Positions 12,831-53,300 of a DNA stretch of 64,000 bases are shown here, piece after piece; position 1 is the stretch's first letter, and every line of letters begins with the position of its first letter. Position numbers and translations under genes: made by a program. Under the pieces are notes generated by a model, which saw nothing but the letters and a program-made list of their open reading frames with translations, searched no databases and was not told where the DNA came from. The stretch is from Solibacillus palustris (GTDB lineage: Bacteria; Bacillota; Bacilli; Bacillales_A; Planococcaceae), in NCBI RefSeq assembly GCF_022549215.1, contig NZ_JAKZFC010000009.1, forward strand, positions 62,001 through 126,000, read 5' to 3'.

Positions 12831-13033
12831 GGTCTTGTCTGGAAATTGATTTCCGGACAAAACCTTTGCGCCGAGGATAGAGGCTAGCATGAAGCAAATC
12901 ATGAATACTCTATCACTGATCGTGACGTTTTTAGCATTCGTTCTTTACTTGCGACCACCCTGAAAGCAGCCAACAGCGGATAAATAACACATGAGTGGAC
13001 ATTGTCTAAAAAGTAAACACTTTTAGACAGCTC
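12831..13033 (-). repeat. Dispersed repeat family A, copy 2
   Basis: Full-length copy in the opposite orientation to copies 1 and 3. It begins (on the minus strand) next to the yebC stop with hairpin TGTCTAAAA / TTTTAGACA (13003-13029). Its core arms are GAATGC (12934-12939) with GTATTC (12903-12908), and GTCAC (12922-12926) with GTGAT (12912-12916). It ends with the hairpin at 12831-12856. Relative to copy 1, both substitutions in the core arms convert G-C pairs into G-U pairs, so folding is kept in RNA. Confidence 0.8.
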
Positions 13034-23131: not shown

Positions 23132-23320
23132 CAATTACGCCTTTGCGTGATTGTGTCCAGATTTTTTTCGAGCCTTCTCGAAAAACTCCTCTAAAAATCT
23201 GTGACATCCGCCAGGGGCATTGGGCCAACACGATGTTGGTCACTTAGGATTTGCCGCACGACGCGGCACTCTTAGCCTAAGTTGATTAATACAACCAGGT
23301 TTTGAAACCCCGCTGAAGCA
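23128..23320 (+). repeat. Dispersed repeat family C, copy 1 (multi-hairpin)
   Basis: About 190 nt shared in its first ~95 nt with 42495-42606. It contains a chain of small perfect hairpins: CAATTACGC/GCGTGATTG (23132-23153), TTTTTCGAG/CTCGAAAAA (23164-23185), CCAACA/TGTTGG (23225-23239), ACTTAGG/CCTAAGT (23242-23282) enclosing GCCGC/GCGGC (23253-23267), and GGTTT/AAACC (about 23298-23309). No ORF is present. This density of stems is far above ordinary intergenic DNA and suggests a folded RNA or a non-coding mobile repeat. Confidence 0.78.
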
Positions 23321-30969: not shown

Positions 30970-31539
30970 TCATTTTATATAGCTCTGAATTTCTTTAATA
31001 ATATCTGCTAATTCACGATCTGTAGTTTGAATGCGAATAAACTCACTTTCTAATGCGTTGAACTCTTCAACAAAACGTTGACGTAATGCTTCATCATTTA
31101 ATTGGTCATCTAAAAAGCCTCGTCCGCGCGCATCTAAACGCATTTGACGCTCCCCTTCTTCTACATCTAAATAGAAAATGTAATCTGGCTTGCGAATTGA
31201 GTACAGTTCTGTTTCGTATTCATATTTGGCATCTACACCTTTTGCTCGATGCGAAACAACTGTATCGATATAATGGCGAATACAATAAATATTGTTGTCA
31301 TGCTCAGCCATTTTTTCATTGATTACTTCTGTTAATTGAACGTTTGACGCTAAATAGTATAAATAATGTGCTGTTGGTGACTGATGGAATAGCTTTTCAT
31401 CAATATCATGACGATTCGATGAAAACGGATATGGCGGTGATTTTAATAATGAAGAACCTAAATCTTCAAAGTGTAATTGATCACCAACTGTGCTTGTACC
31501 ACTTCCATCTAAACCTGTAATAACAACTAATTTACCCAT
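30970..31539 (-). CDS. Thymidylate kinase-like nucleoside/nucleotide kinase
   Basis: A 189-residue P-loop kinase. The Walker A motif is GLDGSGTST (9-17), followed by DRE-like regions and a lid segment with LDARGRGFLDDQLNDEALRQRFVEEFN. The fold is that of dTMP kinase, but it is shorter (about 210 is usual) and its IRHYIDTVVSHRAKG segment is not the classic DRY/S of TMPK. A deoxynucleoside or other monophosphate is possible. Transcribed alone; AAGGAGATG precedes the ATG. Confidence 0.78.
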   Translation of the reverse strand: MGKLVVITGLDGSGTSTVGDQLHFEDLGSSLLKSPPYPFSSNRHDIDEKLFHQSPTAHYLYYLASNVQLTEVINEKMAEHDNNIYCIRHYIDTVVSHRAKGVDAKYEYETELYSIRKPDYIFYLDVEEGERQMRLDARGRGFLDDQLNDEALRQRFVEEFNALESEFIRIQTTDRELADIIKEIQSYIK

Positions 31540-31682
31540 GAAAGTTCATCTCCTTTCGAATCCTCAAAAATGTACCATATTTCACCTATTTCGTAAATGA
31601 AGCACGGCATAAATGTTCATTTTCTGTCACAATATTTACCAGTTAAATTCCAAGATAGAAAATAAAATATTTTCTAAAAATA

Positions 31683-31711
31683 TTGACAATTATTATTCAC
31701 TACACTAATAT
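31683..31711 (+). promoter_or_regulatory. Strong sigma-A promoter of the ABC exporter operon
   Basis: A perfect -35 TTGACA (31683-31688) is followed after 17 nt by TAATAT (31706-31711). Transcription would start near 31718, about 39 nt before the first leader ORF, giving a ~365-nt leader before the first ABC gene. Confidence 0.85.
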
Positions 31712-31756
31712 TAAGGAACACTAAATAATTTAAAACACGTAAAGGAGGCTATGGCT

Positions 31757-31852
31757 ATGATGAACCCAATTGTAAAACCACATACAAATAACACAATATC
31801 ATACAAGCCTACCTTAAACCTTTGTTTTAAATGTTCATTCGTACGTAAATAA
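31757..31852 (+). CDS. Leader peptide 1 of the ABC exporter operon (BmrB-like)
   Basis: A 31-residue ORF starting MMNPIVKPHT and ending CSFVRK. AAAGGAGG lies 8 nt before ATG 31757 (another ATG at 31751 is too close). It ends exactly where the first terminator begins. In B. subtilis the homologous bmrCD exporter is preceded by the leader gene bmrB, whose translation controls a terminator; this ORF occupies the same place. No amino-acid similarity to BmrB is claimed. Confidence 0.75.
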   Translation: MMNPIVKPHTNNTISYKPTLNLCFKCSFVRK

Positions 31853-31886
31853 AAGGCGCAGGTACGGTCATACTGTGCCCTTTTTC
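31851..31886 (+). terminator. Leader terminator 1
   Basis: AAAAG-GCGCAG pairs with CTGTGC-C-CTTTT (one bulge, one G-U), followed by TTTTTCG. An upstream segment ACCT..CCTTT (31811-31823) within leader ORF 1 can pair with AAAGG..AGGT (31852-31863) and would disrupt this stem, giving a possible antiterminator. Confidence 0.7.
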
Positions 31887-31891
31887 GTTTT

Positions 31892-31927
31892 GACACCTTT
31901 TCGAAAAATCGGATAGGTGTCTTTTTT
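31892..31927 (+). terminator. Leader terminator 2
   Basis: GACACCT (31892-31898) pairs with AGGTGTC (31915-31921), followed by TTTTTTG. This is a classic strong intrinsic terminator located inside the leader, before the structural genes. Confidence 0.85.
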
Positions 31928-31988
31928 GTTTGTATAACAGACAAAAACGACAAAAATTTAGTGAAGAAAATTTTGAGGAGGGCTTTGT

Positions 31989-32045
31989 ATGATGATTTTC
32001 ATGCAACGAAAACTATTAAGACAGGATCTCTACGATGATGGGTAG
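31989..32045 (+). CDS. Leader peptide 2 of the ABC exporter operon
   Basis: An 18-residue ORF, MMIFMQRKLLRQDLYDDG, with the excellent ribosome site GAGGAGGG 6-7 nt before ATG 31989. It lies between the two leader terminators and the first ABC gene (38 nt further). It may raise or gate ribosome loading on the first ABC gene, whose own site (GAAGG, about 10 nt away) is weaker, or be a second sensor. Confidence 0.55.
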   Translation: MMIFMQRKLLRQDLYDDG

Positions 32046-32083
32046 CTACTTAACAAACTTCAAAGAAAGAAGGTACACAGACC

Positions 32084-33826
32084 ATGTTTAATGTATTTGT
32101 CAAACTGAAATGGTTTTTTAAAGAATACCGCAAGCAATACACCCTCGCGATTACATTACTAATGATAGCGAGTGTTGTCGAAATCTTGCCACCTTGGATT
32201 TTAGGTGAAGCAATCGACACGATGACAAATGGTGAAATGGATAATACACAACTATTCAAATACGTAGGGTTCACGCTAATTGCTGCAGTGGCGAGCTATT
32301 CGCTGAACTTTGTATGGCAATATCAGCTATTTGGTGGCTCTATTGCCTTGGACCGAATTTTACGTAAAAAATTAATGCATCAATTTTTAAAAATGACTCC
32401 AACGTTTTATGAAAAAAACCGTACTGGTGATTTAATGGCCAAAGCAACAAATGATTTAAATTCCGTTACATTAACAGCTGGTTTTGGGATTATGACGTTA
32501 ATCGATTCAACTGTCTATATGGCACTAATTATTTTAGCTATGGGCTTCTTCATTTCATGGAAGCTAACATTTTTTGCAATGCTACCAATTCCAATCATGG
32601 CAATCATCATTCAATATCTAGGGAAAATTGTTCATGAGCGCTATATGACTGCACAAGAGGCATTCGGTGAAATGAATGATAGTGTATTAGAATCGGTTGC
32701 TGGTACACGTGTTATTCGTGCCTATGTTCAAGAAACAAAAGACGAACAGCGCTTCAGTGATATGAGTGAAAATATTTTTGCGAAAAATATGCGCGTTGCT
32801 TACATTAACGGTCTTTTCATGCCAATCACAAAAATTGGTACTGGGATTTGTTACGTTATCGCACTTGGTTACGGTGCTGTACTTGTTTCAAATGACCAAT
32901 TAACAGTAGGACAGCTTGTATCATTTAATGTCTATTTAGGCTTAGCAATTTGGCCAATGTTTGCGATTGGGGAATTAATTAACGTAATGCAGCAAGGAAG
33001 TGCTTCTCTAGACCGTGTACAAGATACACTAGATTACGAGGCAGATGTAAAAAACCCATTAGCTGCAACAGCTTACGCAACACCAAACTCAATCGGATTC
33101 TCAGAATTCACATTCCAATATCCTTTATCTCAAGCGAAAAACTTACAGCAAATTTCTCTTAATTTACAAAAAGGGCAAACGCTTGGAATCGTCGGAAAAA
33201 CAGGTGCTGGAAAAACGACATTCATCCGCCAGCTACTGCGTGAATATCCGCTTGGTGACGGGCACATCGTGATTAACGATACAGATTTGTCAAATATGAA
33301 CAAAGAGCAAATTTTAGACTGGATTGGCTATGTGCCACAAGATCACGTGTTATTCTCACGTACGATTCGTGAAAACATTCTATTCGGTAAAGAAGATGCA
33401 ACGAGGGCTGATATTGATGAAGCAATTCGTTTAGCAGACTTCGAAAAAGACTTAACAAATTTACCACTTGGCGTGGAAACACTTGTTGGTGAAAAAGGCG
33501 TTTCATTATCAGGTGGGCAAAAGCAGCGTGTATCCATTGCACGTGCACTAATTAAAGACCCAGAAATTTTAATTTTAGATGATTCGTTATCTGCGGTTGA
33601 TGCGAAAACCGAATCAAAAATTATCGAAAACATTCAAACAGAGCGTGCTGGAAAAACGACCATTATTTCAACACATCGCTTATCCGGAATTCAACATGCC
33701 GACGAAATTATCGTGCTTGAGGATGGACTGATTGTAGAACGCGGTACACATGAAGAGCTTCTTCAATTAGGTGGTTGGTATAAAGAACAATTCGACCGCC
33801 AGCAGCTTGAGGAGGTGGGACAATGA
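32084..33826 (+). CDS. bmrC: Multidrug ABC exporter half-transporter, BmrC-like
   Basis: A 580-residue half-transporter: six membrane helices (about 18-310) then the ATPase domain. Walker A GKTGAGKT (371-378), signature LSGGQ (475-479) and Walker B ILILDD (495-500). The residue after the Walker B Asp is D500 instead of the catalytic Glu. This is the degenerate half of a heterodimer, as in B. subtilis BmrC, which also has Asp at that position. It forms one transporter with the next gene (4-nt overlap) and exports drugs from the inner leaflet. Expression is controlled by the leader. Confidence 0.88.
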   Translation: MFNVFVKLKWFFKEYRKQYTLAITLLMIASVVEILPPWILGEAIDTMTNGEMDNTQLFKYVGFTLIAAVASYSLNFVWQYQLFGGSIALDRILRKKLMHQFLKMTPTFYEKNRTGDLMAKATNDLNSVTLTAGFGIMTLIDSTVYMALIILAMGFFISWKLTFFAMLPIPIMAIIIQYLGKIVHERYMTAQEAFGEMNDSVLESVAGTRVIRAYVQETKDEQRFSDMSENIFAKNMRVAYINGLFMPITKIGTGICYVIALGYGAVLVSNDQLTVGQLVSFNVYLGLAIWPMFAIGELINVMQQGSASLDRVQDTLDYEADVKNPLAATAYATPNSIGFSEFTFQYPLSQAKNLQQISLNLQKGQTLGIVGKTGAGKTTFIRQLLREYPLGDGHIVINDTDLSNMNKEQILDWIGYVPQDHVLFSRTIRENILFGKEDATRADIDEAIRLADFEKDLTNLPLGVETLVGEKGVSLSGGQKQRVSIARALIKDPEILILDDSLSAVDAKTESKIIENIQTERAGKTTIISTHRLSGIQHADEIIVLEDGLIVERGTHEELLQLGGWYKEQFDRQQLEEVGQ

Positions 33827-35559
33827 GCACTTCAAAAAGACTTTACAACTATGCATTAAAATTTAAAAAGCCGATTTCCATCGGATTATTCTTACTAACG
33901 CTTGCGGTTGCAACGGATATCGCCGGGCCGTTTATAGCCAAGTATATTATTGACCATTACATGACACCAGGAAGTATCGAAGCGAAGCCAATCGTTATTT
34001 TACTAGCGATTTTCTTCTTACTTTCTGTTTTAACAGCCATGTTCCGCTATGCGATGAATATTTTCTTACAGCGCGGTGCGAACCACGTCATTCAACAACT
34101 ACGTAAAGATGTGTTCGGACATATTCAAAAGCTTCCAATTGAATACTTCGATAACTTACCAGCCGGGAAAGTTGTTGCTCGTGTAACGAACGATACCGAG
34201 GCGATTCGCAATCTTTACGTAACCGTACTTTCTCAATTTGCCAATAGCCTTATTACGATTGCAGGGGTATATATTGCATTATTCATTTTAAATTGGAAAA
34301 TGGCATTATTTGCACTGTTGCTAATTCCAATTGTCTATATATGGATGATTTTATATCGTAAATATGCATCGCAATACAATCACGTTATTCGTACAAAAAT
34401 TGCAGATATTAACGCAATGATTAACGAATCGATTAACGGTATGACAATCATCCAAGCATTCCGTCGTGAAGATCAAATGAAGGTTGAATTCGATGAAATG
34501 AATGACGAACATTATGAATACAATCGTAAACTATTAATTTTAGATTCTGCGACAAGTCATAACTTAGTCAATATTTTACGACTGTCTATGTTTGCTGTAT
34601 TTGTCTACTACTTCGGTACACAATCTATGACTTTACCAGAAGCTGTATCAGCCGGTACTCTATACGCATTCGTTGATTACATCACACGTTTATTCAATCC
34701 GATTACGAACATGGTCAACCAGTTCTCTCAATTAGAACGTTCACTTGTTGCCGGATCTCGTGTATTTGAGCTACTCAACCAAAAAGGCGAAACAGTAAGC
34801 TTACAACATATTGAGCGCTATAAAGGAAATGTTGTATTCGATAACGTATCATTTGCTTACAAAAACGATGAGTACGTATTAAAAAACATTCAATTTGAAG
34901 CAAAGCAAGGTGAAACGATTGCACTTGTTGGTCATACAGGTTCAGGAAAAAGTTCGATTATGAACTTATTATTCCGATTCTATGATCCGCAAAAAGGACG
35001 TATCGTTATTGATGGGCAGGACATTACAAAGCTGCCGCGCCAAGCGATTCGTGAGCATATGGGAATCGTATTACAAGATCCATATTTATTTACAGGAACA
35101 ATCGCATCGAACATTAGCTTAAATGACGAACGTATCTCACGTGAAATGGTGGAAAAAGCGTTAGAGGCTGTTGGTGGTGAGCGTGTATTATCAAAATTTG
35201 AAAAAGGTATAGATGAGCCTGTTATTGAAAAAGGCAGTACGCTTTCTTCAGGGCAGCGTCAGCTCATTTCATTTGCACGTGCATTAGCGTTTGACCCAGC
35301 AATTTTAATTTTAGATGAAGCAACTTCGAATATTGACTCCGAAACAGAGGAAATTATTCAACACGCGATGGACGTATTAAAAAAAGGACGTACAACGTTC
35401 ATCATCGCGCACCGCTTATCAACAATTAAAAATGCCGACAAAATTTTAGTATTAGACCGTGGTGAAATTGTTGAACAAGGAAACCACGATGAACTCGTTG
35501 CCCTAGGTGGTAAATATGAGCTAATGTACCGATTACAATCAGGTGCACTCACTTCATAA
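33823..35559 (+). CDS. bmrD: Multidrug ABC exporter half-transporter, BmrD-like
   Basis: A 578-residue half-transporter overlapping the previous gene as ATGA. Six helices (about 15-310), Walker A GHTGSGKS (370-377), Walker B with intact catalytic E499 (ILILDEATS), but signature LSSGQ (474-478) instead of LSGGQ. Together the pair has one consensus ATP site (this Walker A/B with the partner's LSGGQ) and one degenerate site. It is about 95 residues shorter than B. subtilis BmrD (673), lacking the extra segment of that protein. Confidence 0.86.
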   Translation: MSTSKRLYNYALKFKKPISIGLFLLTLAVATDIAGPFIAKYIIDHYMTPGSIEAKPIVILLAIFFLLSVLTAMFRYAMNIFLQRGANHVIQQLRKDVFGHIQKLPIEYFDNLPAGKVVARVTNDTEAIRNLYVTVLSQFANSLITIAGVYIALFILNWKMALFALLLIPIVYIWMILYRKYASQYNHVIRTKIADINAMINESINGMTIIQAFRREDQMKVEFDEMNDEHYEYNRKLLILDSATSHNLVNILRLSMFAVFVYYFGTQSMTLPEAVSAGTLYAFVDYITRLFNPITNMVNQFSQLERSLVAGSRVFELLNQKGETVSLQHIERYKGNVVFDNVSFAYKNDEYVLKNIQFEAKQGETIALVGHTGSGKSSIMNLLFRFYDPQKGRIVIDGQDITKLPRQAIREHMGIVLQDPYLFTGTIASNISLNDERISREMVEKALEAVGGERVLSKFEKGIDEPVIEKGSTLSSGQRQLISFARALAFDPAILILDEATSNIDSETEEIIQHAMDVLKKGRTTFIIAHRLSTIKNADKILVLDRGEIVEQGNHDELVALGGKYELMYRLQSGALTS

Positions 35560-43757: not shown

Positions 43758-43789
43758 AAGATTCATAGCAAATGACAACTACATATTTT

Positions 43790-43888
43790 CTTATCAAGAG
43801 AGATGGAGGGACAGGCCCTTTGAAGTCTCGGCAGCAGCTATACATAGCGTTGTGCCAAATCCTGCAAGTATACACTTGGAAGATAAGA
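43790..43888 (+). ncRNA. SAM-I riboswitch (S-box) aptamer
   Basis: The S-box core is clear: CTTATC..AGAGAGATGGAGGGA, then AGGCCCTTTGAAGTC, CGGCAGCAG, TGCCAAATCC and closing AGATAAGAG. P1 pairs CTTATC (43790-43795) with GATAAG (43882-43887). S-adenosylmethionine binding stabilises the aptamer and lets the downstream terminator form, shutting off methionine uptake genes when SAM is plentiful. Confidence 0.95.
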
Positions 43889-43910
43889 GCAAAAGTAATG
43901 ATAACTATTC

Positions 43911-53095: not shown

Positions 53096-53300
53096 GCTGT
53101 CCAAAAAGTCATAACTTTTTGGACAGTGCCAACCTCGTGTAGTAATAATCCGCTATAGGCGGTGCTTCTGCGGTGGTCAGAAGGGAAGAACGAATGCTAA
53201 AACCGTCACATCCTGTAACAACGCATTCATGACTAGCTTCGTGCTGGTCTCCATCCTCGGCGCAAAGGAAGTGTCCCAGAAATACTTCTCGGACACCCCC
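53096..53300 (+). repeat. Dispersed repeat family A, copy 3
   Basis: The best-preserved copy. It opens with TGTCCAAAAAGT/ACTTTTTGGACA next to the end of the FAD oxidase gene, has core arms GAATGC (53192-53197)/GCATTC (53223-53228) and GTCAC/GTAAC (one mismatch), and closes with GTGTCC/GGACAC (53271-53296) 7 nt from the stop of the DUF1648 gene. The two end hairpins sit at the 3' ends of the two convergent genes and probably terminate both. Confidence 0.82.

Follow-up and report, generated by a model that had tools for sequence, protein, structure and literature searches.

A bmrB-type leader ahead of bmrCD in Solibacillus with a second, widely conserved leader peptide

How is a drug exporter controlled when its leader holds two short open reading frames (ORFs), one before its terminators and one after them? 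This question is raised by a 64 kb stretch of Solibacillus DNA (the window, meaning the whole stretch), in which a promoter, ORF 1, two intrinsic terminators (T1 and T2), and ORF 2 precede two genes for an ATP-binding cassette (ABC) exporter. The genes correspond to bmrCD of Bacillus subtilis, where the induction of efflux by antibiotics through ribosome-mediated attenuation has been studied. We find a bmrB-type attenuator and, in addition, a widely conserved second leader peptide; a step based on translation termination is possibly new. Because the second peptide is conserved over many genera, in its length, C-terminus, and stop codon, the picture of a leader with one ORF is incomplete. The reading we lean towards is a two-stage leader: ORF 1 would gate transcription as bmrB does, and ORF 2 would be a second cis-acting leader peptide that works at its own termination. 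The parts of the locus are as follows.

31683–31711, plus strand: sigma-A-type promoter TTGACA-17-TAATAT (-35 box at 31683–31688, 17-nucleotide (nt) spacer, -10 box at 31706–31711)
31741–31748, plus strand: Shine-Dalgarno sequence (SD) of ORF 1, AAAGGAGG, read directly
31757–31852, plus strand: ORF 1, leader peptide MMNPIVKPHTNNTISYKPTLNLCFKCSFVRK (31 codons and a stop)
31811–31823, plus strand: candidate 5' strand of an antiterminator inside ORF 1 (enriched over loci with two terminators; no significance for the window by itself)
31855–31879 (stem, approximate), plus strand: intrinsic terminator T1
31892–31927, plus strand: intrinsic terminator T2 (stem about 31892–31921, nearly invariant in the genus; U-tract 31922–31927)
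31975–31982, plus strand: SD of ORF 2, GAGGAGGG, read directly
31989–32045, plus strand: ORF 2, conserved small leader peptide MMIFMQRKLLRQDLYDDG (18 codons, stop TAG)
32084–33826, plus strand: bmrC ortholog, ABC exporter subunit (best PDB match YheI/BmrC, 757 bits)
33823–35559, plus strand: bmrD ortholog, ABC exporter subunit (best PDB match YheH/BmrD, 703 bits)

An earlier sequence-only reading had listed ORF 1, two tandem terminators, ORF 2, and the ABC genes, and direct reading of the DNA bears out all of them. By sequence similarity, the ABC pair is the ortholog of B. subtilis bmrCD: window BmrC scores 757 bits to YheI, versus 558 bits for a paralog in the same genome. (The alignment of window BmrD to YheH starts at residue 53 versus chain residue 145, so window BmrD is about 90 residues shorter before that point.) Together, orthology and position make this a leader of bmrCD. 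A short ORF led by an SD and then an intrinsic terminator before bmrC give it the bmrB-type layout, as in the B. subtilis attenuator (Reilman et al. 2014, PMC4191407), where the available parts of the paper describe orthologous genes, a short translated leader ORF, and an intrinsic terminator before bmrC. In contrast, the window has two serial terminators and a second ORF after them, and those parts of the paper do not mention a second ORF.

We compared leaders from a range of relatives. Searches found bmrC orthologs in all 16 genomes of the genus Solibacillus, in 130 of 151 genomes of the family at the chosen cut-off, in 101 of 299 genomes of the class, and in 43 of 44 genomes of the genus of G368, which contains B. 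subtilis. (Locus (L) and genome (G) identifiers are our own labels.) Named records cover the best 80 bmrC matches among the matches listed. The loci that we fetched, a subset of the matches, were those delivered with the searches plus 60 further upstream regions. Dropping duplicates and the paralog loci L017–L030 and L236, which do not read as bmrC, reduced 204 upstream regions to 188 distinct ones. The sample is uneven and is rich in Planococcaceae and Bacillus; the Solibacillus set includes the window's own genome and one of the same species.

All 16 Solibacillus genomes have T1, T2, an ORF 1 with an SD, and ORF 2, which is the conservation that the sequence-only reading had asked for, although ORF 1 is frame-shifted in one of them. 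(This is L006, at the same place as L045, from Solibacillus faecavium; its ORF 2 is intact.) Beyond the genus, our main rule for ORF 2 was an SD-led ORF of 16–27 codons upstream of bmrC that ends in [D/E/N]-x-[G/D/E]-stop. ORF 2 was present by this rule in 142 of the 188 upstream regions (an earlier rule gave 128/175), and 114 of the 142 have 17–20 codons. Under a stricter rule (a strong SD, an ATG start, 13–21 codons, and the same end), applied to 110 upstream regions (identifiers below L130 and nine more), it was found in 100/110, versus 1/2,200 shuffled sequences. Terminators were called in the 188 regions without a shuffle control: 97 had at least two, 89 had one, and 2 had none. So neither the pair of terminators nor the second ORF is peculiar to this locus, as had been claimed.

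ORF 2 ends with UAG in 126 of 142 cases. By comparison, UAG is the stop codon in 6 of 121 bmrC genes (of the same loci, those long enough to read) and in 25 of 154 ORF 1s. The excess gives p ~ 3e-48 versus the bmrC stops and p ~ 4e-39 versus the ORF 1 stops (Fisher tests), values that should not be taken literally because the sequences are related. The C-terminus is roughly K-E-x-L-[E/D]-x-G and the N-terminus is variable. Because the search rule fixes positions -3 and -1, our tests of conservation rest on other features: among 124 distinct peptides, position -4 is leucine in 74 and position -6 is glutamate or aspartate in 104, and both positions are outside the rule. A C or T directly follows the stop codon in 138/142.

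We then asked what fraction of the changed ORF 2 codons are synonymous, compared to random placement of the changes (the pairs of sequences are not independent). The excess is marked in Psychrobacillus (98/129, 0.76 vs. 0.26), Sporosarcina (225/459, 0.49 vs. 0.22), and Planococcus (286/867, 0.33 vs. 0.19). It is smaller in the Neobacillus-like (196/665, 0.29 vs. 0.19), Solibacillus (147/637, 0.23 vs. 0.16), B. pumilus-like (123/523, 0.24 vs. 0.19), and Lysinibacillus-like (85/512, 0.17 vs. 0.14) clades. This codon comparison shows that ORF 2 is under selection at the peptide level in several clades. We also considered that bmrB-type attenuation explains everything and that ORF 2 is a neutral relic. 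Some leaders do lack ORF 2, and the B. subtilis-like group has no coding signal, but the near-absence of ORF 2 from shuffled sequences, the synonymous bias, and the preference for UAG make a relic highly improbable.

What might such a peptide do? Its short and steady length, conserved C-terminus, and nearly fixed UAG suggest that it acts as its translation terminates. With about 18 residues, the chain is expected to be inside the ribosome's exit tunnel when the stop codon is reached. TnaC and SpeFL are termination-arrest peptides that regulate at the leader's own stop codon, and a conserved C-terminus and stop, as in those peptides, is what we see for ORF 2, except for the UAG in the B. subtilis-like group. 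The likeness suggests that ORF 2 acts at its own stop as well; its sequence, its organisms, and the downstream logic are different from those of TnaC and SpeFL, and arrest at ORF 2 is putative. A variable N-terminus with a C-terminus and stop that hardly vary would also fit regulation at termination.

We propose that, with a layout like that of B. subtilis bmrB, ribosomes on ORF 1 would control the passage of polymerase through the intrinsic terminators, and slowed translation of ORF 1 would give more read-through. The read-through transcript would carry ORF 2 as an 18-codon cis-acting leader peptide, and a ribosome lingering at its UAG would set the efficiency of bmrC translation or the lifetime of the message. 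We infer the first stage by homology, and we infer as well what happens at termination and how bmrC is affected. More tentatively, ORF 2 might be the founding case of a leader peptide family not yet described, with the pattern [basic-hydrophobic]-K-E-x-L-[E/D]-x-G-UAG, whose members slow or arrest the ribosome when release factor 1 acts. Behind the attenuator, this would give bmrCD a second, post-transcriptional checkpoint that responds to drugs or to termination stress. If this is true, then the textbook leader of B. subtilis is incompletely annotated, and for bmrB perhaps wrongly. Either way, ORF 2 allows a direct test of whether termination at UAG is a regulated step.

A simpler explanation is that ORF 2 loads ribosomes, with a strong SD and a short ORF that stabilize the read-through message or ward off Rho, so that the peptide is irrelevant. 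An ATG with a strong SD lies at -130 to -50 in 103 of 110 upstream regions, versus 354 of 2,200 shuffled sequences, and ORF 2 starts at a median of 61 nt past the last terminator stem (140 loci). However, a loading site needs neither a conserved C-terminal peptide and stop nor the synonymous changes between them that we see in several clades, so we consider this explanation unlikely. Alternatively, the peptide could act in trans as a small protein, for instance on the BmrCD exporter or on the membrane. Selection on the peptide and its place next to bmrC would fit. But with about 18 residues it is charged and, by eye, has no long hydrophobic span, its N-terminus varies, and a nearly fixed UAG has no evident use in trans; we think that a trans-acting protein is decidedly unlikely.

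The sequence-only reading had raised the possibility of a separate effect of ORF 2 on translation. In the classical form of this idea, as in the Erm-type attenuators that are an established design for drug-resistance genes (Reilman 2014, PMC4191407, in the parts available), a stalled ribosome would open a structure that hides the SD of bmrC. We modeled the openness of this SD in 48 leaders, 6 from each of 8 clades. In six of the clades it is slightly less open than in shuffled sequences, by 0.02–0.12, or for one of the six, Neobacillus/Cytobacillus, by 0.24 (0.32 vs. 0.56). However, Planococcus and the B. pumilus-like clade show the opposite. Furthermore, in the six long-gap clades, parking a ribosome on the stop codon of ORF 2 shifts the openness by at most 0.09, up in some cases and down in others. 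(In two Bacillus groups the ribosome mask itself reaches the SD of bmrC, so that the figure is void there.) Where the test is valid, then, the energy model does not show a parked ORF 2 ribosome freeing a hidden bmrC SD, which leaves the classical form of the suggestion without backing, and an Erm-type attenuator seems very unlikely.

ORF 2 might instead raise bmrC translation through termination and reinitiation, as has been proposed for leader genes near structural genes (PMC4833913). The available parts of that study propose reinitiation distances that peak at 10–11 base pairs (bp) in several phyla and, without a marked peak, at 15–16 bp in Firmicutes. In 107 of 142 loci, ORF 2 ends 28–44 nt before bmrC, rather than about 10–16 nt from the next start, and reinitiation would leave the C-terminal motif unexplained. 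The 32 loci with a gap of 15–24 nt fit better. (In the other 3 loci the gap is at least 198 nt. In L035 and L036, ORF 2 runs from 255 to 198 nt before bmrC; L035 has an extra terminator-like hairpin between ORF 2 and bmrC.) Overall, we consider reinitiation very improbable. An internal SD within ORF 2 (AAGGA over the K-E codons), judged by eye, was also dropped, as it is not kept in Solibacillus.

Turning to the first stage of the proposed two-stage leader, a rule-based search located an SD-led ORF ahead of the terminators in 155 of the 188 upstream regions (one of these, in L035, is really ORF 2). The ORF 1 peptides differ among genera, with short cores that are common within a genus: T[I/T]SYxP in Solibacillus, NFIHCPYL and variants in the Neobacillus-like group, and SYLP in most of Psychrobacillus. 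We rejected the idea that ORF 1 is a strongly selected peptide. Its synonymous fraction, versus random placement, is 0.14 vs. 0.15 in Solibacillus, 0.14 vs. 0.17 in Psychrobacillus, 0.03 vs. 0.19 in the Lysinibacillus-like clade, and 0.29 vs. 0.15 in four Neobacillus-like sequences.

ORF 1 had been thought to contain one strand of an antiterminator, with ACCT..CCTTT pairing to the 5' arm of T1. Across loci with two terminators this idea has some merit, as the T1 arm pairs with the ORF 1 region better than in shuffled sequences (p ≤ 0.05) in 33 of 75, where about 4 are expected. The same pairing reached p ≤ 0.05 in 9 of 105 one-terminator loci and in 4 of the 16 Solibacillus loci. The window itself can form a duplex containing the ACCT..CCTTT pairing (-13.5 kcal/mol), though shuffled sequences do equally well (p = 0.245). 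Furthermore, the proposed antiterminator occupies T1 only and T2 stays formed in the modeled states, so polymerase would still be stopped if only T1 were freed. An antiterminator for T2 was tried and rejected as the explanation: the T2 arm pairs with upstream sequence at p ≤ 0.05 in 9/75 loci (about 4 expected, so weakly above chance), and the mean duplex is -11.2 kcal/mol versus -17.5 kcal/mol for the mean hairpin.

We also computed energies for 12 Solibacillus leaders in five states (free, or with a ribosome placed at any of four sites), in a model that, like our other energy models, ignores kinetics, NusA/NusG, and pausing. In the window, a ribosome parked at the start of ORF 1 reduces T1 formation from 0.84 to 0.03 (0.28 in a longer RNA); the reduction is clear in 3 of the 12 leaders (L001, L005, and L006), the window among them. 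A ribosome at the stop of ORF 1 abolishes T1 in 6 of the 12. T2 forms with probability 0.79–0.98 in all 60 states. The earlier proposal that stalling on ORF 1 frees transcription is partly supported: in the model, T1 can respond to ribosomes, but T2 does not.

T2 (31892–31927; alignment columns 178–212) is nearly invariant within Solibacillus, including its inner stem and its loop. This conservation perhaps exceeds what a terminator needs. Of 18 predicted pairs in the Solibacillus alignment, 1 has a two-sided change, and covariation is uninformative here because T2 is almost invariant. (Our terminator scan of the window listed T1 only, as the loop of T2 exceeds that scan's length rule.)

Several observations weigh against the two-stage reading. 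No modeled state disarms T2 in the 12 Solibacillus leaders, and ORF 1 has no synonymous-codon signal in most of the clades tested. For ORF 2, residues -3 and -1 are part of the rule that finds it, and 46 of 188 upstream regions have no ORF 2 by the main rule. ORF 2 of the B. subtilis-like leaders has no coding signal (0.18 vs. 0.26), and another frame does better (0.41 vs. 0.23); with its GTG start and a UGA or UAA stop, it may be degenerate in that group. Finally, the gap between ORF 2 and bmrC varies, and a held ribosome reaches the bmrC site at a short gap and not at a long one, so a single sign of the effect cannot hold for all loci. The short gap in Bacillus (15–24 nt) would change the geometry.

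Where is ORF 2 missing? Families with ORF 2 among their fetched members are f1, f14, f33, f37, f38, f41, f44, and f51, although the f51 case (L143) is weak, with a TTG start and a TAA stop. By rule, there is no ORF 2 in the fetched members of f2, f3, f6, f9, f16, f19, f22, and f29. Judging from upstream sequences such as L038, L062, and L098, ORF 2 can be absent within the window's own family too. Many of the 28 ORF 2-less upstream regions that we inspected have a terminator close before bmrC, and at least L059, L075, and L249 appear to be near misses of the rule. (Upstream of bmrC in L178, at -66 to -24, there is an ORF 2-like ORF ending in GGS-UAG; it is outside the motif rule and was not counted.) A profile of ORF 2 found one strong hit (E ≤ 2.7e-5) in each of 18 of 31 genomes, always at the bmrC leader, with the caveat that several of these sequences had helped build the profile; the other 13 genomes had weak hits or none. 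As for similar modules elsewhere in the genomes, the next best hits among the matches listed (150 first-look candidates were scored per genome) are weak, with 22.9 bits and E = 4e-4 in G012.

The B. subtilis leader served as a yardstick. We took locus L222 as B. subtilis because its BmrC is identical to YheI from PDB over 574 aligned residues and because a GTG-initiated ORF of 53 codons (162 bp) ends 119 bp before bmrC, which is the published length and place of bmrB (PMC4191407, in the parts available). So the published layout is visible in L222. The same leader contains an ATG-initiated ORF, MPRNLRVYQTVSYWRGKPFVLFS and a stop, with the SD AGGAGGG. It starts at -297, 16 nt upstream of the GTG of bmrB and in another frame; the ATG ORF (-297 to -225) overlaps the annotated GTG bmrB (-281 to -119). 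Among ten B. subtilis-like leaders, the ATG ORF and its SD are present in all ten, the GTG in six, and the GTG with a frame reaching into the terminator in four. A substitution test of the bmrB frame versus the ATG ORF (0.21 vs. 0.19 and 0.15 vs. 0.22) does not decide between them. According to the available parts of PMC4191407, alternative starts or ribosome sites were lost as well in the mutant of the bmrB start codon, so it does not separate the two ORFs, and green fluorescent protein fused in frame with annotated bmrB gave fluorescence from a plasmid and not from the chromosome. We think that the ATG ORF is probably the B. subtilis leader, rather than the annotated GTG bmrB.

Two other leaders, as described in the available parts of their papers, invite comparison. 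The leader of B. subtilis vmlR (PMC9226507) also combines several layers, namely drug-induced stalling on an upstream ORF, an antiterminator, and an intrinsic terminator; it differs in that its gene encodes an ABCF protein, and no second ORF with a fixed UAG is described. In toiL-topAI of Escherichia coli (PMC12121999), a short upstream ORF likewise senses several classes of ribosome-targeting drugs. The proposed mechanism there is occlusion of the ribosome-binding site together with Rho, whereas we saw no freeing of an occluded site in the bmrC leader. A literature search of limited depth, with sources seen in part, found no description of ORF 2; published term-seq data may show it.

The sequence-only reading had called the promoter perfect. 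Its position, its spacer, and a perfect -35 box hold up, but the -10 box TAATAT matches TATAAT at 4 of 6 positions, so "perfect" was overstated. Promoter-like hits in 31300–32300 are at the level of shuffled sequences (4 vs. a mean of 4.4). The promoter is largely kept in 13 aligned Solibacillus leaders (L005, L008, and L009 are outside this comparison). The region 31718–32090, for which RNA folding had been suggested as a check, is more stable than each of 100 shuffled sequences (z = -3.48), and a scan with Rfam at gathering thresholds gave no match in the leader region.

The divergent neighbor of the operon, at 30970–31539 on the minus strand, has weak similarity to thymidine monophosphate (dTMP) kinase (42.4 bits, under the family cut-off of 83.25). 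Elsewhere in the 64 kb there are four copies of the Bacillaceae-1 RNA (RF01690), two per strand (1875–1941, 12884–12950, 23225–23291, and 53181–53247), and an S-adenosylmethionine (SAM) riboswitch at 43788–43889 (90.4 bits).

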